From contig NZ_LT607755.1 in assembly GCF_900090275.1 (NCBI RefSeq), positions 1,240,001-1,304,000 on the forward strand: a stretch of DNA of 64,000 nucleotides, given 5' to 3'. The stretch comes from Micromonospora zamorensis. Lineage in GTDB: Bacteria; Actinomycetota; Actinomycetes; Mycobacteriales; Micromonosporaceae. Below are positions 25,010 through 36,848 of the stretch, piece after piece (position 1 is the first letter of the stretch; each line of letters starts with the position of its first letter). The notes under the pieces are model-generated. The model had not been told where the DNA came from. It ran no database searches and saw only the letters and a list, made by a program, of their open reading frames with translations. The translations under genes were made by a program, and so were the position numbers.

Positions 25010-26155
25010 ATGTCAGGGTCGCGGTGGCGTGGCCGGGCGGCGGACGCGGGCCTGGTGCTCGGCGTCGGGCTGGTGGCCCTCGTCGGCCTGGTGGTGCAGT
25101 CGCGCGGCATCGACACCGCAGCCGAGTTGGCGGCGCTGCTGGCGGTGCTGGCCTCCTCCGGTGCGCTGTACGTCCGCCGCCGCCACCCGGTGCCGGTGGG
25201 CGTGGTGGCGTTGGTCGCCGTCGGCGCGTACGGGGCGTTGTTGCACAAGACCGGCCCGATCATGTTGGTGTTCGTCGTGGCGCTCTACACCGTTGTCGAC
25301 GAGGGCCATCTCCGGGTCGCCATCGGGCTCGGCCTCGCCTCGGTGATCGCCTTCGCCGTCGCCGACAGCGGCAACCGTTCCCCGGACACCAGGAACGGTG
25401 CGACGCTGCTGCACGCCGGCTGGCTCGTCGCGGTCATCGTCGGGGTGACCCGAAACCGCCGGGCCTACCTCGCCGAGGCGCAGGCCCGGGCGGTTGCCGC
25501 CGAGCAGAGGCTGGAGGAGGAGGCCCGGCGACGGGCCACCGAGGAGCGGTTGCGCATCGCCCGCGAGCTGCACGACGTGCTCGGCCACCATCTCTCGCTG
25601 ATCAATGTGCAGGCCAGTGCCGCGTTGCACCGACCGGACCCCGCCCGGTCCGAGCAGGCGCTCACCGCGATCAAGGAGACCAGCAAGGAGACACTGCGCG
25701 AGTTGCGGGCGACGCTGGGCGTGCTGCGGCAGGAGGGTGAGGCGCCGATCGTGCCCGCGCCGGGCCTCAACCGCCTCGACGACCTGATCACCACGGCGGG
25801 GCGTTCCGAGCTGGAGATCCGCACCGAGTTCGCGGAGATCCCGGCGCTGCCGCCGGAGGTCGACCTGGCGGTCTACCGGATCGTCCAGGAGGCACTCACC
25901 AACGTGGCCCGGCACGCGGGCGCCACCGCCGCCGTGGTCCGCGTCCGGCCCGACCGCGACGACGTGCTGGTGGAAGTGGAGGACGACGGCACCGGCGCAC
26001 CAGGCGCGCCCGGCAGTGGGATCCTCGGCATGCGCGAACGGGCCCGGGCGCTGGGCGGGTCGCTGACCACGGGCACGCGGCCGGACGGCGGCTTTCGGGT
26101 CTGCGCCCGCCTGCCGCTGCGGCCCGACCCGACGCCGGTGGGGGAGCGGGCGTGA
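25010..26155 (+). CDS. Sensor histidine kinase, NarL/DesK group
   Basis: 381 residues. Four hydrophobic helices in the first 145 residues serve as membrane sensor. A coiled coil (EAQARAVAAEQRLEEEARRRATEERL) leads to the HisKA_3 dimerisation helix ARELHDVLGHHLSLINVQASA with phospho-acceptor His188. The ATPase domain ends with [26 protein letters not shown]. It phosphorylates the response regulator encoded next, whose start overlaps its stop by 4 nt. Confidence 0.92.
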   Translation: MSGSRWRGRAADAGLVLGVGLVALVGLVVQSRGIDTAAELAALLAVLASSGALYVRRRHPVPVGVVALVAVGAYGALLHKTGPIMLVFVVALYTVVDEGHLRVAIGLGLASVIAFAVADSGNRSPDTRNGATLLHAGWLVAVIVGVTRNRRAYLAEAQARAVAAEQRLEEEARRRATEERLRIARELHDVLGHHLSLINVQASAALHRPDPARSEQALTAIKETSKETLRELRATLGVLRQEGEAPIVPAPGLNRLDDLITTAGRSELEIRTEFAEIPALPPEVDLAVYRIVQEALTNVARHAGATAAVVRVRPDRDDVLVEVEDDGTGAPGAPGSGILGMRERARALGGSLTTGTRPDGGFRVCARLPLRPDPTPVGERA

Positions 26156-26814
26156 TCCGGCTGCTGCTCGTCGACGACCAGACCCTGGTCCGCGCCGGCT
26201 TCCGCTCCATCCTGGACGGTGAGGATGGCATCGAGGTGGTCGGTGAGGCCGCCGACGGGGCGGAGGCGGTGCGACTCGCCGTGCGGCTGCGGCCGGACGT
26301 CGTCCTCATCGACATCCGGATGCCCGTGCTGGACGGCCTCGCCGCCACGGGGCAGATCGTCGCGCGGACCGATGCCCGCGTCATCATCCTGACCACGTTC
26401 GACCTGGACGAGTACGTCTACGGGGCGTTGCGAGCCGGCGCGAGCGGGTTCCTGGTCAAGGACACCGAGCCGGCGGAGCTGATCCACGCGGTGCGGGTGG
26501 TCGCCCGCGGTGACGCGCTGATCGCGCCGGCGATCACCCGTCGACTGATCGCCGAGTTCGCGGCCCGGGTCCGGCATCCGGACCCCGGGCCGCGACTGAG
26601 CGTCCTCACCGAGCGGGAGCGTGAGGTGCTGACACTGGTCGCCGCGGGCCTGTCCAACGACGAGATCGCCGCGCGACTGGTGCTGAGCCCGGCCACCGCC
26701 AAGACGCATGTCAGCCGGATCATGACCAAGGCGCAGGTGCGGGACAGAGCCCAGCTGGTGATCCTCGCCTATGAGTCGGGTCTGACCGTTCCCGGCTGGC
26801 TCACCCGATCCTGA
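26152..26814 (+). CDS. Response regulator, NarL/LuxR type
   Basis: 220 residues. The receiver domain has VDDQ at 7-10 and phospho-acceptor Asp54 in VVLIDIRMPVLDG, with Lys in FLVKDTEPAEL. The LuxR-type helix-turn-helix covers about 148-210 (LTEREREVLTLVAAGLSNDEIAARLVLSPATAKTHVSRIM). GTG start overlapping the kinase stop (GTGA). Target genes are unknown; the neighbouring ABC exporter is a candidate by position. Confidence 0.92.
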   Translation: MIRLLLVDDQTLVRAGFRSILDGEDGIEVVGEAADGAEAVRLAVRLRPDVVLIDIRMPVLDGLAATGQIVARTDARVIILTTFDLDEYVYGALRAGASGFLVKDTEPAELIHAVRVVARGDALIAPAITRRLIAEFAARVRHPDPGPRLSVLTEREREVLTLVAAGLSNDEIAARLVLSPATAKTHVSRIMTKAQVRDRAQLVILAYESGLTVPGWLTRS

Positions 26815-27983: not shown

Positions 27984-28748
27984 TCACCGCTGCCAGGCGT
28001 CGATGGTGCGTACGCCGTCGCGGAGGACCCGGTCCACCATGGCGGGGTCGCCGTTGGTGCCCTCCCACCCCTGGTCGTCAAAGACCGTCACCGTGGTGTC
28101 GACGCGCGCCACGGCGATCTGGCTGGACGAGCTGCCGCCGGTGCGGTCTCCGTTCAGGTTCGTCCCGGCCCACGTCCGGTCCAGCAGCAGCGCCTCGTCG
28201 CCAACGCCGGACAGGGCCCGGCTCTTCACGGTGCCGGGGCTCCCAAAGTGGTCGTAGGAGGGGCACGCCTGCACGGCGGTGCGCAGGCGCGCCATGTACG
28301 CCGAGGCGCCGTCGCCCTCGAAGGTGAAGATGGTCTGGTGGATCATCCCCTGCGGCACGTTGGTCTCCGGTTCGCCGGCCTTCTTGTAGGTGACGGTCAT
28401 CGCGGCGCTGGCGGTGACCTGTCGACCTCCGGTGCCGAACTCGTTGGCGCACAGCTTCGGCAGGGCCTCTTCGACGGGCGTCGTCCGTCGGGGGGACTTC
28501 CGCAGCTCGGTGGGCAGCTCGACGAAGGCTGACGTCGGGATGGTCGCCGGAGCGCTCGCGCTCGACGATGGCGGGTCGCTCGGGTTCGTTGCCGCCCCCG
28601 CGGTCGTCGGCGCCGCGCTCGATGGGGTCGCGTCGGGCGAGTCCTCAGCCGTGCTGCAGGCACTCGCGAGTGCGATGCTGCCGAGCAGCGGGACCAGCAC
28701 AAGCAGACTTCGCGTACGGGAGGTCGGCGGTGTCACGTGTCGGCTCAT
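27984..28748 (-). CDS. Putative secreted lipoprotein, unknown function
   Basis: 254 residues. Signal with lipobox LASAC (Cys about 31), then a long Ser/Thr/Pro/Ala-rich linker (about 32-75) typical of actinobacterial lipoproteins. The folded C-terminal part (about 80-254) contains four cysteines in total and FTFEGDGASAYMARLRTAVQACPSYDHFGSPGTVKSRALSGVGDEALLL, which recalls the extracellular PknH-like sensor fold. ATG with AGGGG 7 nt upstream. Role unknown; possibly cell envelope sensing. Confidence 0.65.
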   Translation of the reverse strand: MSRHVTPPTSRTRSLLVLVPLLGSIALASACSTAEDSPDATPSSAAPTTAGAATNPSDPPSSSASAPATIPTSAFVELPTELRKSPRRTTPVEEALPKLCANEFGTGGRQVTASAAMTVTYKKAGEPETNVPQGMIHQTIFTFEGDGASAYMARLRTAVQACPSYDHFGSPGTVKSRALSGVGDEALLLDRTWAGTNLNGDRTGGSSSSQIAVARVDTTVTVFDDQGWEGTNGDPAMVDRVLRDGVRTIDAWQR

Positions 28749-28862: not shown

Positions 28863-28875
28863 TAGGCTGCCCCGC
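28863..28875 (+). promoter_or_regulatory. Leaderless promoter of the argS leader peptide
   Basis: TAGGCT at 28863-28868 lies 7 nt before ATG 28876, the same layout as at the histidine kinase and sigma factor genes. No clear -35 box. Confidence 0.5.
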
Positions 28876-28968
28876 ATGACCAGCGTGAGCGCCCACCGCA
28901 CCGGACCGTCGTGTGACGTCCTGGTCGGTGCGCGGCGACGCCAGCGATCCGTCGCCCGCCCGCGCTGA
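28876..28968 (+). CDS. Arginine-rich leader peptide upstream of argS
   Basis: 30-codon ORF (MTSVSAHRTGPSC then DVLVGARRRQRSVARPR). Seven of 30 residues are arginine, including three consecutive codons CGG CGA CGC at 28933-28941. It starts right behind a leaderless promoter, ends 122 nt before argS, and is followed by a strong hairpin. This is what a ribosome-mediated attenuation leader for an arginine-related gene should look like. No homologue could be checked. Confidence 0.5.
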   Translation: MTSVSAHRTGPSCDVLVGARRRQRSVARPR

Positions 28969-29004
28969 CCTGTTTCCTGCGACCGGCGGATCGAGCCGCC
29001 GGTC
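28945..29004 (+). promoter_or_regulatory. Candidate attenuator with competing hairpins
   Basis: Terminator-like stem GACCGGCGG (28981-28989) with CCGCCGGTC (28996-29004), 6-nt loop, no U-tract. The segment CGATCCGTC (28945-28953, inside the leader ORF just after the triple Arg codons) can pair with GGCGGATCG (28985-28993), 8 Watson-Crick pairs and one G-U, which would exclude the terminator stem. A ribosome stalled on the first of the three Arg codons leaves 28945-28953 mostly free; one that reaches the stop at 28966 covers it. Confidence 0.45.
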
Positions 29005-29090
29005 ATCCGCTGGTCGTCCTCGGTCCGCCCGCATCTCCCCCTTTCAACGACTCGCGTGACGGCGCGGGTACGAGTGAGATCGGCGTACTC

Positions 29091-30809
29091 ATGGATCTTG
29101 AAAAGCTGTTGTCCGACCGGCTGGCGCCGGCGTTCGCGGCGGTGGCCGGCGCCCCTGTCGACCCGCTCGTGCGGCGGTCTCCGCGCGCGGACTTCCAGTC
29201 CGACGCGCCGCTGGCGCTGGCCCGGCGGCTCGGCCGCCCGCCGCGCGACATCGCCGCCGCGGTGCTGGAGCACGCGGTGCTCGACGACGTCTGCGTGTCG
29301 GCGGAGGTGTCCGGGCCGGGTTTCCTCAACCTCACCATCGCCGACCGGGCACTGGCCGACCTGGTCGCCGGGCTGGCAGCCGACGCCCGGCTCGGCGTGC
29401 CGCTGGCGGCAGCACCGCAGACCGTGGTGGTCGACTATTCGGCGCCGAACGTGGCGAAGGAGATGCACGTCGGGCATCTGCGCTCGACCGTCATCGGCGA
29501 CGCGGCGGTGCGGCTGCTGGACTGGCTCGGGCACCGGGTGGTGCGGGTCAACCACCTGGGTGACTGGGGGACACCGTTCGGGATGCTGATCGCGCACCTC
29601 GCCGACCTCGGTGAAGCCGAAGCGGCGCACGAGTTGTCGATGGGCGACCTGGACGGCTTCTACCGGGCGGCGCGGGTGAAGTTCGACGCCGACGAGGCGT
29701 TCCGGGAACGGTCGCGGCTGCGGGTGGTCGCGTTGCAGGGCGGCGACGAGCGGACGCTGCGGTTGTGGCGGCTGCTGGTGGAGCAGTCCGAGCGGTACTT
29801 CCTGACCGTGTACGACCTGCTCGACGTGACGTTGTCCGAGGACGATTTTCGGGGCGAGAGCGCCTACAACGACCTGCTTCCGGGCATCGTCGACGACCTG
29901 GACCGGTTGGGGCTGCTGGTTTCCAGCGGCGGGGCCGACTGCGTCTTCCCACCCGGGTTCACCGGGCGGGACGGCGAAGCGTTGCCGCTGATCGTGCGTA
30001 AGAGCGACGGTGGGTACGGCTATCCGGCCACCGACCTTGCCGCGCTGCGGCAGCGCACCGGTGAGCTGGGAGCGACCCGGTTGTTGTACGTGGTCGGGTT
30101 ACCGCAGCGGCAGCACTTCGCGATGGTGTTCGCCGTCGCCCAGGCGGCCGGTTGGCTGTGCCCGCCGGTCCGGGCCGAGCATCTGGGCTTCGGGTCGATC
30201 CTCGGCGCCGACGGGCGGATGCTGCGCAGCCGGACCGGCGAGTCGGTGAAGCTGGTCGGGCTGCTGGAGGAGGCGGTCACCCGCGCCACCGACCTGGCCC
30301 GGAGCAGGAACCCGGACCTGGACGCCGAGGCCGCCGCCGAGATCGGGCGGGCCGTCGGTATCGGCGCCGTCAAGTACGCCGACCTGTCCACCGATCGGAG
30401 GAAGGACTACGTGCTGGACTGGGAGCGGATGCTCTCCCTGGACGGCAACACCGCGCCCTACCTCCAGTACGCGTACGCCCGTATCCGGTCGGTGTTCCGG
30501 CGTGCCGGCACGGAGGCGCGGAGGGACGCCCCCATCGTGCTCGCGCAACCGGCGGAGCGGGCGCTGACTGTCGAGTTGCTCGGCTTCGGCGCGGTGGTCA
30601 CCGAGGTGGAGCGGAGCCTCGACCTCCACCAGCTCGCCGGTTACCTGCATCGGCTCGCGACCGCGTTCAACGCGTTCTACGAGCGCTGCCCGGTGTTGCG
30701 CGCGCCGGACGAGCTGCGGGAGAGTCGGCTGCTGCTGGCCGAGCTGACGGCCCGGACCCTGCGGCAGGGGCTGCACCTGCTCGGCATCCGCACCCTGGAG
30801 CGGATGTGA
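29091..30809 (+). CDS. argS: Arginyl-tRNA synthetase
   Basis: 572 residues, class Ia synthetase that charges tRNA-Arg in the cytoplasm. The signature VDYSAPNVAKEMHVGHLRSTVIGD contains the HIGH-equivalent HVGH at 126-129. The KMSKS-type loop is degenerate (RMLRSRTGESVKL), as in most bacterial ArgRS. The all-helical anticodon-binding domain covers about 450-572, with YLQYAYARIRSVFRR. Length matches the family. Expression is probably tuned by the arginine-rich leader and hairpin upstream. Confidence 0.95.
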   Translation: MDLEKLLSDRLAPAFAAVAGAPVDPLVRRSPRADFQSDAPLALARRLGRPPRDIAAAVLEHAVLDDVCVSAEVSGPGFLNLTIADRALADLVAGLAADARLGVPLAAAPQTVVVDYSAPNVAKEMHVGHLRSTVIGDAAVRLLDWLGHRVVRVNHLGDWGTPFGMLIAHLADLGEAEAAHELSMGDLDGFYRAARVKFDADEAFRERSRLRVVALQGGDERTLRLWRLLVEQSERYFLTVYDLLDVTLSEDDFRGESAYNDLLPGIVDDLDRLGLLVSSGGADCVFPPGFTGRDGEALPLIVRKSDGGYGYPATDLAALRQRTGELGATRLLYVVGLPQRQHFAMVFAVAQAAGWLCPPVRAEHLGFGSILGADGRMLRSRTGESVKLVGLLEEAVTRATDLARSRNPDLDAEAAAEIGRAVGIGAVKYADLSTDRRKDYVLDWERMLSLDGNTAPYLQYAYARIRSVFRRAGTEARRDAPIVLAQPAERALTVELLGFGAVVTEVERSLDLHQLAGYLHRLATAFNAFYERCPVLRAPDELRESRLLLAELTARTLRQGLHLLGIRTLERM

Positions 30810-31197: not shown

Positions 31198-31314
31198 AGT
31201 GACACCAACACCATCAATAAGCCGGTAGAACCGGCACCAGTCCTCCGATGGCGTCCGGATGGCCGCCCGGTACGTCCGAACGTGAGTCGAACCTCGACGT
31301 CCGTGGTGACGTAC

Positions 31315-31350
31315 GGGCCGTGTGGGGCTCCGCCGCGCCCCACACGGCCC
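31315..31350 (-). terminator. Terminator downstream of the GH10 xylanase gene
   Basis: 14-bp perfect arms GGGCCGTGTGGGGC (31315-31328) and GCCCCACACGGCCC (31337-31350) with an 8-nt loop, 42 bp after the xylanase stop. It also insulates the arsR gene, which starts at 31197. Confidence 0.65.
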
Positions 31351-31391
31351 TACGCCGGCATACGTGCCGTCGGATCAGCCGGGCCCGCGGG

Positions 31392-32585
31392 TCAGCGGCG
31401 GGGCCTGGGCGTGATGCGCGGCAGGACGTACGGCGGTCCAGCGAGGATCAGGTCCGACTTCAGCTCCTGGTACGCCCGCTTGGGTTGGTAGTTCTCGTCG
31501 TAGATCGTGGCCAGGCCCTCCGGCGGGTCGTCGAACCAGTCCGGCACCCAGGAGTACCTGTCGCTGAAACCCCAGACCGTGTACGACAGGCAGCTGCGCA
31601 CCGCGAGGCACGCCTTCATCAGCACGCTGAAGTTGGCGGCCGACGCCTGGAGCCGAGGGTTGATCTCCTCCGAGTTGCCGGCCTGGACACCTGCCGTCAT
31701 CTGACTGCGGACGTCGACCTCGGTGAAGGCGGTGGCGACGCCGAGCCCGCTGAACTTCTTCAGCGCGGCGGTCACCTGAAGGGTGTCGAAGTTGCCGTAC
31801 TGCGTGCCCAGGTGGCCCTGGGAGCCGACGCCGTCGATCGGGACACCCTGTGCGCGCAGCCCCTTGGTCATGTCGTAGACGAACTGGGTCTTGTCGTCCG
31901 CCGGGTTGCCGGAGCCGAACGCCTCGATGTTGTAGTCGTTGTAGAACAGCAGGGCCTTCGGGTCGGCGGCCCGCGCCCAGCGGAACGAGTCGGCGATGTA
32001 GCCGGGCCCGAGGTTCTGCGCCCAGAATCCCTTGTAGTGCAGGGTCGACGGGGTGTCCCACGGGTCGCTGACCGCCTCGTTGACCACGTCCCACTGCCAG
32101 ATCTTGCCCTTGTAACGGTTGACGACGGTGGTGATGTGCTTGCGCAGAATCTCGCGCAGCTCCTGCTTGCTGATGGAGCCGTCGGCGACACCGGCGGTCA
32201 GCCAGGCGGGCAGTTGGTTGTGCCAGACCAGCACGTGGCCGCGCACGCTCTGCCGGTTGCGCTTGGCGAACTCGACCAGCTGGTCGGCCGCCGCCCAGTT
32301 GTAGGTGCCGCGGGTGGGCTCCAGGACCTCCCACTTCATCACGTTCTCGGCGGTGACCGAGGTGAACTCGGAGGAGGCCAGCGCGCGGTACTGCGGGTCA
32401 CCGGCGTCGTTGAGGGCATCCATGTTGACCGCGGTGCCGACGTGGAGGCCGTGGCGCAGACCGAGGGCGCCGAGGCTCTGCGCCGTGGGGTCGTAGGGCC
32501 GGCTCGCGGTGGCCGGCACCGTGTTCAACGCCGCGACGGTCGCGACGGCGACCACGGCGACGGTCGTCCACTGTCTCAGCTTCAT
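31392..32585 (-). CDS. Secreted endo-1,4-beta-xylanase (GH10)
   Basis: 397 residues, single catalytic domain without a binding module. Signal peptide about 1-28 (ending ATAS). The GH10 barrel carries the acid/base Glu170 in WQWDVVNEAVSD and the nucleophile Glu289 in ATAFTEVDVRS, with WHNQLPAWL in the substrate cleft. It hydrolyses the xylan backbone outside the cell. ATG 32585 has AAGGAAGG 5 nt upstream; an in-frame ATG 14 codons up lacks this. The C-terminal VLPRITPRPRR tail is extra to the fold. Palindromes upstream suggest xylan-specific repression. Confidence 0.95.
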   Translation of the reverse strand: MKLRQWTTVAVVAVATVAALNTVPATASRPYDPTAQSLGALGLRHGLHVGTAVNMDALNDAGDPQYRALASSEFTSVTAENVMKWEVLEPTRGTYNWAAADQLVEFAKRNRQSVRGHVLVWHNQLPAWLTAGVADGSISKQELREILRKHITTVVNRYKGKIWQWDVVNEAVSDPWDTPSTLHYKGFWAQNLGPGYIADSFRWARAADPKALLFYNDYNIEAFGSGNPADDKTQFVYDMTKGLRAQGVPIDGVGSQGHLGTQYGNFDTLQVTAALKKFSGLGVATAFTEVDVRSQMTAGVQAGNSEEINPRLQASAANFSVLMKACLAVRSCLSYTVWGFSDRYSWVPDWFDDPPEGLATIYDENYQPKRAYQELKSDLILAGPPYVLPRITPRPRR

Positions 32586-32926
32586 GTGCCTTCCTTTCCA
32601 GACCCTTGATCGACAAGTGTCGATCAAGAAGGTGCGGGTCCGGTGTGGGCGGGTGGGGAGCGGGGTTCGGAATCGAGCGCCCTGGTCCGGGCGAGGGGCC
32701 GGTAGTTCCGGCCGGTGACCGGAAACCTGCTCGAAACGTTAAGGCCGTCTATGTCCGGGCGTCAACGCTGAAAACTTCCGGAAATTCGTCATATGACCTG
32801 CGCGGGGTTGCTTGACGGCCTCGCGAAACTTTCGGATGTCAGGGACGTGCTGCTGCCACGCAACGAGGCACCGTCGACCGGGTGGCCGACGATGCCTGGT
32901 GGCGTTACGGAAGTTGAGGGGCGCAG
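32586..32926 (-). promoter_or_regulatory. Upstream region of the xylanase with CGAAA-type palindromes
   Basis: 341 bp without genes. CGAAACTTTCG at 32824-32834 is a perfect palindrome with one central base. Related words are CGAAACGTTAAG from 32732 and GGAAATTCG at 32780-32788 next to TTCCGGAA. Repeats of the CGAA-N-TTCG type have been described at xylan genes of Streptomyces (BxlR) and would suit a repressor site here. Confidence 0.45.
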
Positions 32927-34899: not shown

Positions 34900-35535
34900 T
34901 CAGCCTCGGCGGCCCGGACGCTGCGGCTCCGGACGTTCCACCCGCACGGGGTCGCCGCGTACCAGATCGTCGTGGATGCGCCACCGCGCGGTCGTGACGG
35001 CACGCCGCGCTGTCTCGTCGCCCTGCTCGATGCGTTGCCGCAGCAGTTGCAGGGCGATCCGACGGTTGAGGCTGAACTGCCGCTCCTCGTCCACCACCAC
35101 GACGATGCCCGACGGACGGTGCGTCGCCCGCACCGCCGTGCTGGCCTTGTTGCGGTGCTGACCGCCGGGCCCGCCGGTGCGACAGGCGACGATGTCGACA
35201 TCCGCCTCCGAGAACGTCGTCGGCGCGGCGTCGAGGCGGGGCGTCTGGGCGGTGACGTACCAGTTCTTCCGACCGACGCTCGTCCGGTAGGGGCTGGGGG
35301 CCTGCCAGCAGAGTGTCCCGGTCCATGACCCGGCGAACGTCTCCGCGTCGGCGCCGGAGATCTCGATGAGCACCGACCGGTAGGTGCCGGCCCGGTCACC
35401 GGGCACGGCCTTGACCTGCCGGATGGTCAGACCTCGCCGGCTGCCGTCGGCGTTGAGGCGGTGCAGGAGCTGGGTCAGCGCCCAGGCGCATTCCCGCGGA
35501 CCGCGCCCGGCGGACAGCAGCAGGAGCGTGCTCAC
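34900..35535 (-). CDS. prfH: PrfH-type release factor
   Basis: 211 residues, about the length of PrfH and far shorter than RF1/RF2 (about 360), lacking the N-terminal domain. The GGQ loop at 124-126 sits in CRTGGPGGQHRNKASTAVRATHRPSG, the hallmark of peptidyl-tRNA hydrolysing release factors. The stop-codon recognition SPF/PAT-type motif is replaced by SPYRTSVGRKNWYV. PrfH is known to release stalled peptides from ribosomes damaged at the decoding centre, where its partner RtcB2 then religates the rRNA. GTG start overlaps the rtcB stop by 4 nt (GTGA), so the two are coupled. Confidence 0.88.
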   Translation of the reverse strand: MSTLLLLSAGRGPRECAWALTQLLHRLNADGSRRGLTIRQVKAVPGDRAGTYRSVLIEISGADAETFAGSWTGTLCWQAPSPYRTSVGRKNWYVTAQTPRLDAAPTTFSEADVDIVACRTGGPGGQHRNKASTAVRATHRPSGIVVVVDEERQFSLNRRIALQLLRQRIEQGDETARRAVTTARWRIHDDLVRGDPVRVERPEPQRPGRRG

Positions 35536-36719
35536 GACCCGCCTCGCCTGCCGCGGTGGCCCCGCCGGTCGGACCGCGCCGTGGACGCGAGGTCGGGCGT
35601 CTTGTAGGTGACCAGGGGAATCGTGCTGACCACCGGCGTGGCCAGCTGGTGCTCGACGAGGTCGGCGATCACCTGCTCGATGCGCTTGTAGGCGGTGGGC
35701 GCCTCCTCGAAGAGCAGTTGACGGTCGCCGCACACCACCAGCGAGCCCACCGGTGTGCGGCGCAGCTCCTCGACGGTGTGCTTGGCGCGGCCCCGGCGCA
35801 GCGCGTCGGCGCGTGACATCTTGCGGCCGGCGCCGTGCGCCACGGAGTGGTTGGCCTCCGGCCCTGCGTGGGCGGCCACCAGATAGGACGCCGTCCCCCG
35901 CGTCCCGGCGACGAGGACGTCGCGGCCGTCACCCGGCGCCGCGCCCTTGCGATGCAGGTACAACCCGTCGCGGATCTCGACCAGGTTGTGGCACTGGTCG
36001 ACGATCGGGTCGGTGGGCTCGGCCCCCAACGCGTATGCGACCCGGGCCGCCAGCACCCGGCGGTTGAGCGAACCCCAGCGCACAGCGTCGTCGTGCCGCG
36101 CCAAGTAGGCGGCGGGGTCGGGGGCGGCACCGGCGCCGTGGGCCTCGGTGTGCGCCCGCAGGATCCGCTCGCCCAGACCGCGCGAACCACTGTGTACGAC
36201 CAGCACGAGATCGCCGGCGTCGAGCCCGAGCCGACTCGCGTGACCCGGGTCGAGGACGGCGCCGACGCGGGCCAGCTCGACGAAGTGGTTGCCTCGGCCG
36301 ACGGTCCCCAGGCCATCGAGGTGACCGGCCGGGACGTCGCCCTGAACGACGGCCCAGGCCGGGTCGTCGGCGTCCCGCTCCGGGTCCAGGGCGTGGTCGA
36401 GGTCGGGGAACCGGGAGGCCAGCCGCTCCGGTACGGCCCGCTTGAGCTTGATGGGGAACACGGCGATGCCGCAGCCGATGTCCGATCCGACCAGGAACGG
36501 GTACAGCACCGTCGACGCCATGGCCGCACCGATGGGGGCGCCCTTGCCCGGGTGCAGGTCCGGCATCGCGGCAACGTGGACCATGCCGTCGAGGGCGGCG
36601 ACCTGCTGACACTGCGCGAGCGCAGCGGACTCGATCCAACTCGCGGCCGACGCGAACACCGTGACGGAGGCAGAGGTGGGGGAGGGCGTGGAAATCCGAG
36701 GGGGGTGGTGCTCAGACAA
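35532..36719 (-). CDS. rtcB2: RtcB-type RNA ligase (RtcB2, partner of PrfH)
   Basis: About 395 residues. All active-site landmarks are present: AMPDLHPGKGAPIG, GSDIGCGIAVF (Asp80, Cys83), GRGNHFVEL, VVHSGSRGLGERI, QCHNLVEI and HGAGRKMSRADA with the guanylylated His (about 295). RtcB joins RNA 2',3'-cyclic phosphate or 3'-phosphate ends to 5'-OH ends using GTP and manganese. Coupling to a PrfH gene marks the ribosome-repair branch (RtcB2), distinct from archease-linked RtcB. The frame is open to 36782; a TTG at 36719 with AGTGAG upstream is the likeliest start but is uncertain. Confidence 0.88.
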   Translation of the reverse strand: MSEHHPPRISTPSPTSASVTVFASAASWIESAALAQCQQVAALDGMVHVAAMPDLHPGKGAPIGAAMASTVLYPFLVGSDIGCGIAVFPIKLKRAVPERLASRFPDLDHALDPERDADDPAWAVVQGDVPAGHLDGLGTVGRGNHFVELARVGAVLDPGHASRLGLDAGDLVLVVHSGSRGLGERILRAHTEAHGAGAAPDPAAYLARHDDAVRWGSLNRRVLAARVAYALGAEPTDPIVDQCHNLVEIRDGLYLHRKGAAPGDGRDVLVAGTRGTASYLVAAHAGPEANHSVAHGAGRKMSRADALRRGRAKHTVEELRRTPVGSLVVCGDRQLLFEEAPTAYKRIEQVIADLVEHQLATPVVSTIPLVTYKTPDLASTARSDRRGHRGRRGGS

Positions 36720-36848
36720 GGGGTACTCACTTCTCGTTGAGAAGGTGGAAACGGACGACGTCACGCCGCCGGGAGGCGTCACCGGGGGCGGAGCGGGGGA
36801 GGGAGTCCGTCAGTACGTCATGGACGCCACTCTCGCCGAGCGCGCCGG

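Follow-up and report, generated by a model that had tools for sequence, protein, structure and literature searches.

Does the short region in front of argS in this Micromonospora genome sense arginine and, if so, how does it act on the gene? A sequence-only reading of the window (the whole stretch of 64,000 nucleotides analysed) had proposed a ribosome-mediated attenuator. Our analysis keeps the arginine-rich leader, the mutually exclusive pairings and their conservation, but assigns the antiterminator to another strand, makes translation initiation a likely output and identifies the target as an auxiliary gene. We consider it likely that 28863-29090 attenuates this auxiliary argS in response to arginine by way of a translating ribosome, and ribosome mediation is the most likely way in which the conserved arginine-specific leader switch before the spare argS works. 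The elements discussed below are listed in Table 1.

Table 1. Elements of the argS leader region, in coordinates of the window
Element	Position	Strand	Remarks and evidence
-10-like box TAGGCT	28863-28868	+	7 nt before leader ATG 28876; leaderless start expected
Leader ORF MTSVSAHRTGPSCDVLVGARRRQRSVARPR	28876-28968	+	30 codons, 7 Arg
Segment 1, Arg run CGG CGA CGC CAG CGA	28933-28947	+	sequence; CGA enrichment
Segment 2, end of the leader ORF reaching into its stop codon; pairs with segment 3	28953-28967	+	2:3 conservation, folding
Segment 3, common arm, pairs with 2, 4 or 5	28977-28995	+	folding, alignment
Hairpin 3:4, 9-bp stem	28981-29004	+	sequence, conservation, covariation
Segment 5 CTCGGTCCGCC	29019-29029	+	can pair with 28985-28995 (3:5) or with the pre-argS region (5:7)
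Segment 7, region of argS initiation; 3' arm of hairpin 5:7	29061-29087	+	folding
argS, auxiliary arginyl-tRNA synthetase, 572 aa	29091-30809	+	TIGR00456, E 5.2e-133

The leader itself was found as first described, with its box at leaderless spacing from the ATG and an ORF of the claimed length and arginine content whose three consecutive Arg codons lie at 28933-28941. It also held up when the region was compared across Micromonosporaceae: the ORF, the Arg run, the stem and the downstream segments are present in 77 of 77 genus loci, these being the fetched loci with an ArgRS identity of at least 77% (two come from one genome). Outside this set are eight full-length genus loci of 76-78% identity (G047, G058, G101, G103, G128, G130, G144 and G151) and argS fragments. 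A TANNNT box at leaderless spacing precedes the ORF in 76 of the 77 loci, L063 being the sole exception. The 76 box-bearing leaders code for 28-35 aa, all contain CGACGCC in frame, and all end in ..RLR, ..RPR or ..RLS.

Mutually exclusive pairings downstream of the Arg run do exist, as folding and conservation of 2:3 and 3:4 indicate. The 9-bp stem has its arms at 28981-28989 and 28996-29004 around a 6-nt loop, exactly as claimed. The proposed antiterminator, 28945-28953 with 28985-28993, can indeed pair over 9 bp with one G-U, but it is not the main strand, a role that falls mainly to 28953-28967. Among the 77 sequences its inner six pairs are kept in 98.9% of cells and its outer three in 57.2%; the latter figure and a mean probability of at most 0.001 in ensemble folding led us to reject it as the main antiterminator, although the well-kept inner pairs may contribute. 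Pairing 2:3 is found in 99.4% of cells in the same 77 sequences and is nearly invariant, so covariation is uninformative about it.

More variable material was provided by a set of 31 diverse sequences, drawn from 95 loci after removal of redundancy. Here 3:4 is paired in 98.2% of cells, with 8 cells changed on both sides, and none of 500 shuffles was as high on both-side cells and score; the number of pairs with both-side changes (2) was reached by 215 of the 500 shuffles and that of further pair types by 408. Since the stem core belonged to the pattern by which the 31 sequences and a larger set of 102 loci were selected, the inner stem pairs are independent evidence only in the 77. Pairing 3:5 (28985-28995 with 29019-29029) is present in 96.2% of cells of the 31 sequences, 14 of them changed on both sides; again no shuffle in 500 was as high on both-side cells and score, while the number of pairs with both-side changes was reached by 396 and that of pair types by 104. 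The best 9-mer of 3:5 matches at 8 or 9 of 9 positions in 101 of 102 loci. Against shuffled downstream regions, 3:5 gives P 0.073 in the window, and Fisher combination gives 2e-5 over 19 loci and 4e-4 over 7 picked by hand. In folding, hairpin 5:7 ends a few bases short of the argS start and sequesters the initiation region; its mean z is -1.9 over 102 loci, with 51 of them below -2, and it is weak in the window (-0.3). In L156, L160 and L163 it covers a GGGG that resembles a Shine-Dalgarno sequence. Sequence and comparison show the ORF with its Arg/CGA run, and that 2:3, 3:4, 3:5 and 5:7 are conserved. The fold z-score is -1.88 for 28876-29110 and -0.62 for 28951-29110, which lacks the first 75 nt.

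The effect of a ribosome on these pairings was modelled by folding. When the RNA ends at segment 3, the 76 main-clade loci form 10.2 pairs of 2:3 with a stalled ribosome, 1.5 with the ribosome at the stop codon and 4.6 without a ribosome; the corresponding values are 11.5, 0.05 and 4.9 in a group of 9 loci and 3.8, 0.5 and 2.5 in 6 mixed loci. In these folds, stalling favours 2:3. The values of the window itself (11.6 stalled, 5.0 at the stop codon, 9.6 without a ribosome) count against the proposal. Once segment 4 emerges, 3:4 dominates in every ribosome state. For RNA ending after segment 5, the main-clade values of 3:4 and 3:5 are 0.58 and 0.32 when stalled, 0.69 and 0.30 at the stop codon, and 0.65 and 0.33 without a ribosome; the two pairings are within mutual reach in all states. 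The clade means thus show no stall-specificity of 3:5, which counts against the proposal. In the window, 3:5 reaches 0.32 when stalled, 0.00 at the stop codon and 0.15 without a ribosome. The full transcript counts against the proposal, as 3:4 together with 5:7 dominates whatever the ribosome position, 5:7 forming in all states. A forced 3:5 lies on average 10 kcal/mol above 3:4 (range -3.2 to 27.4). Equilibrium folding with ribosome masks therefore failed as proof of switching and by itself yields no switch: because 3:5 is costly and the full-length RNA insensitive to the ribosome, a kinetic switch has to be assumed. If it exists, it would have to be set while the RNA is being transcribed.

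We suggest that it would work as follows. The ribosome would start on the leaderless 30-codon ORF and then read the Arg run with its rare CGA. When charged Arg-tRNA is sufficient, it would complete the leader and segment 3 would pair with 4; segment 5 would then close 5:7 up to the argS start, turning argS off. When charged Arg-tRNA is short, the ribosome would stall within the Arg run and leave segment 2 uncovered, which could capture segment 3 as it emerges and so delay 3:4; segment 5 may then take segment 3, leaving the argS start open. Pairing 3:5 would accordingly represent the on state, and arginine shortage would raise argS. With the third partner of segment 3 at 29019-29029 and the hairpin that extends to the argS start, translation initiation becomes a likely output; that this is the main output has in our view about an even chance, a translational lock being slightly favoured over termination. 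Rho, or a pause at 3:4, may contribute as well.

The same arginine sensor might act by classical transcription attenuation, with 3:4 terminating either without a U-tract or via Rho, 2:3 serving as the antiterminator and the downstream hairpin being incidental. The competition of 2:3 with 3:4 has the classical geometry, 2:3 depends on the stall in folding, and the survey in PMC1262725 includes leader peptides of cys operons without obvious terminators, for which Rho is suggested. However, the missing U-tract, seen from the outset as the weak point of the attenuator, was confirmed for the window stem and is equally missing after the whole set of 102 stems, where the longest T run in the following 20 nt is 1-3; an intrinsic terminator with a U-tract at 3:4 was rejected for this reason. 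Under transcription attenuation the conserved 3:5 and 5:7 would, moreover, be superfluous, and we regard this explanation as rather unlikely.

A further question is whether the leader senses an amino acid at all. It could be a constitutive upstream ORF, acting for instance through reinitiation or mRNA stability; short upstream ORFs are common in Actinobacteria and Arg codons are frequent in GC-rich DNA. Taken alone, the leader in the window is indeed near chance in dinucleotide shuffles (P 0.20 for an Arg run of three, P 0.42 for 7 Arg). Clustering into Arg runs gives a Fisher P of 1.6e-5 over 19 leaders and of 0.006 over 8 clade representatives picked by hand, L135 and L138 having been excluded from the shuffle tests as their stem was unmatched by the search pattern. 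It is conservation that indicates that the leader and the folds are real, though they are barely above chance in the window sequence alone. The run of three in the window is CGG CGA CGC and contains the rare codon CGA; the longest Arg run in the 76 genus leaders is 4 in 66 leaders, 5 in 7, 3 in 2 and 2 in one. CGA makes up 109 of 527 leader Arg codons (20.7%); among the Arg codons of argS at the same loci, counted over the first 300 codons, it accounts for 24 of 2088 (1.1%). In 25 of 25 further leaders, 24 from other genera together with L083, CGA again lies within the Arg run, several reading CGA CGA CGA (L157, with 2 Arg, was left out of this comparison). That the Arg run with CGA is kept before an ArgRS gene while the remaining peptide changes makes a constitutive ORF improbable. 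One property of the leader counts against our preferred reading, an arginine-responsive attenuator: variation by codon position is 0.125, 0.103 and 0.045 over 48 leaders, with the third position varying least, unlike in a normal protein, and the peptide itself is thus probably not under selection. The GC content by codon position is 0.72, 0.69 and 0.90 in the genus leaders, and the leader peptide matches no NCBIfam family.

Beyond the genus, 24 of 42 loci from other genera (L128-L167, L199 and L200) have a leaderless-type ORF with at least 3 Arg, albeit diverged; L157 has its leader with 2 Arg, and 17 have none by our rule. These 17 include L129-L131 of the gltX2 group, described below, and several loci in which argS itself stands behind a TANNNT box. 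L142 was scored as having none because the alignment misplaced its start, although both the end of a gltX-like tail and a stem can be recognized in the DNA upstream. At class level (L100-L127), a short ORF with three consecutive Arg precedes argS in 8 of 28 loci if any ATG or GTG start is permitted, and in 0 of 28 under the box rule.

Several relatives are organized differently. L089-L091, of the same genus and with an argS of about 55% identity, carry a different Arg-rich short ORF, e.g. MGPVVAVRRGRLRRR, which ends in CGA CGA CGA TAG; downstream of it lies a hairpin with complementarity to these CGA codons. L146, L150, L151 and L165-L167, from related genera, have another type of leader that ends in ..RRR(I/F/V)xAAR or similar, mostly written CGA CGA CGA. 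In relatives without a leader (L085, L137, L139-L141), argS lies behind TAGATT and appears to be leaderless itself; the window has at 29074-29090, just before the argS ATG, a degenerate stretch, GAGATCGG, similar to this TAGATT.

Two explanations dispense with a leader that is read by a ribosome. The palindrome could be the DNA operator of a dimeric regulator, the Arg leader being unrelated; it comprises 9 bp near a promoter and its bases are strongly conserved. We set this very improbable reading aside because the spacing of the arms varies among relatives and the outer pairs covary; the conservation, in addition, extends beyond the palindrome to the Arg/CGA run and to the partner segment of 3:5. 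A riboswitch that binds arginine or tRNA directly would likewise place mutually exclusive RNA folds before an aminoacyl-tRNA synthetase gene, but we consider it scarcely credible, as the window has no Rfam match at gathering scores, T-boxes included, no large conserved aptamer is seen, and conservation is found in the reading frame of the ORF and in the Arg run.

The specificity of the element was judged with a covariance model, R1, built from the 31-sequence set; several of the loci it matches are among its training sequences. In the source genome it finds one strong place (E 1e-12), the other listed match being the opposite strand of that stem (E 0.97). Among 150 family genomes, 34 have exactly one strong place each, in all cases just upstream of an argS of the window type (32 by position and 2 by direct check).

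The leader may have an unusual origin. In L079-L082, L084 and L129-L131 its position is taken by the 3' end of gltX, which directly precedes the RNA switch and argS; these loci represent an auxiliary gltX2-argS2 pair. In three loci of this group that were read through, the leader frame is open for 222-224 codons upstream, to the edge of the piece, and gltX2 frames of 473 residues are found in G235, G248 and G273, each of which has an additional gltX elsewhere in the genome. The frame matches TIGR00464 with E 2.3e-39, under the model cut-off because only the end of gltX was supplied. By a profile of the tails beside argS, 8 of 36 leaders (L022, L083, L128, L132, L133, L134, L138 and L200) beat 300 of 300 shuffles in their likeness to gltX tails, L083 having P 0.15 with a wider profile. 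The likeness of the window leader is not significant (P 0.077 with argS-adjacent tails, 0.22 with the wider profile). In a midpoint-rooted ArgRS tree, the main genus clade groups with the gltX2-linked and gltX-like clades (98/94), and the gltX2-linked loci lie inside this group. The history may have been an ancestral gltX2-argS2 pair with repeated loss of gltX2 or a single joining of gltX2 to the leader.

Tentatively, and with somewhat less confidence than we would call probable, we propose that the leader descends from the tail of a second gltX, which in some clades became a dedicated arginine leader. As parts of this one proposal, the last codons of gltX2 (ending in GRERTLARLRAALDRLS and the stop codon) would serve in the leader position in one clade, so that a whole synthetase gene doubles as an arginine sensor; other clades would have lost the gltX2 body, their tail gaining a leaderless promoter and CGA codons; and the competition of segments 2, 4 and 5 for segment 3 would couple the stall to the lock on the argS start. 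The gltX-like leaders may show a regulatory leader peptide arising from a neighbouring gene.

The gene downstream was rightly called argS, as its TIGR00456 match indicates, but it is an auxiliary one: the source genome codes for another ArgRS, which is only 28% identical to it. A match to the window-type ArgRS was found in 125 of 160 genus genomes (best E 2.6e-29 or lower), a count that takes in fragments and copies of about 55% identity; the remaining 35 have only a weak match (best E 2.7e-11 to 3.9e-22). The other ArgRS is strong (66-100% identity) in all 18 Micromonosporaceae genomes tested, whether the window type is present or absent, and is matched weakly (E 1e-31 to 1e-17) in 8 of 8 genomes from other families, where the window type consequently looks like the sole ArgRS. 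Fragmented or partial argS genes of the window type occur in G017, G022, G066, G069, G118, G121, G134, G146 and G148, as for an accessory gene undergoing loss; assembly breaks may also account for them. Elsewhere in the window lie a histidine kinase of the HisKA_3 type together with a LuxR-type response regulator, and an ORF of the RtcB family (25010-26814, + strand, and 35532-36782, - strand), with no evident connection to the RNA switch. The ORFs flanking the argS locus (31248-32609, + strand, and 27984-28748, - strand) have no Pfam or NCBIfam match at E 0.001, and the 64-kb window contains no tRNA genes. The proposal makes it testable why many such bacteria retain two ArgRS enzymes: the second might stand in when arginine is scarce or, if the indolmycin-resistant TrpRS1 (PMC9437257) is a valid analogy, when the first is inhibited.

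The sequence-only reading knew of no documented argS case, and we found no argS leader attenuator in a literature search that covered mainly openly accessible papers and few subscription ones; an earlier mention in work on attenuation of aminoacyl-tRNA synthetase genes is possible. Lopatovskaya and co-workers reportedly treated attenuation of such operons in 2010. In the same year Vecchione and Sello are said to have described ribosome-mediated attenuation of the auxiliary trpRS1 of Streptomyces, transcriptional by the title. That system resembles ours in its mechanism, in its auxiliary synthetase gene and in its actinobacterial host, whereas here arginine replaces tryptophan, there is no U-tract and a hairpin covers the gene start. 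The polycysteine upstream ORFs of mycobacteria are likewise short and leaderless and contain a run of the amino acid that they sense, but they concern cysteine and other target genes. If true, our proposal links the control of a spare synthetase to a rare codon and to a leaderless start.

Among actinobacterial amino-acid and aminoacyl-tRNA synthetase operons, PMC1262725 reports trp, cys and leu/ilv elements and ileS T-boxes, other pathways being without conserved structures, with candidate attenuators before trp, trpS, leuS and ilvB as well as leader peptides upstream of cys genes. Runs of the regulatory codon within a leader peptide are shared with our case and two of the targets are synthetase genes, but the trp and leuS cases have U-tracts. 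If our reading is correct, it adds an arginine-responsive attenuator of argS in Actinobacteria, a case absent from the parts of that 2005 survey drawn on here. Arginine sensing by leader codons is described in two other bacteria. In rbfL of Staphylococcus aureus (PMC13009471), a leader uses rare Arg codons to sense arginine, as proposed here, and acts on downstream translation initiation; unlike in our proposal, the paused ribosome blocks the ribosome-binding site and lowers expression, and the gene is not that of a synthetase. The orf34 leader of Salmonella speF (PMC6386406) belongs to the family DUF2618, is apparently not leaderless and precedes an ornithine decarboxylase gene, but it too senses arginine by consecutive Arg codons in a short ORF, with folds that sequester the downstream ribosome-binding site and an involvement of Rho, and in its Arg codons and its folds over a downstream start it resembles the argS leader.
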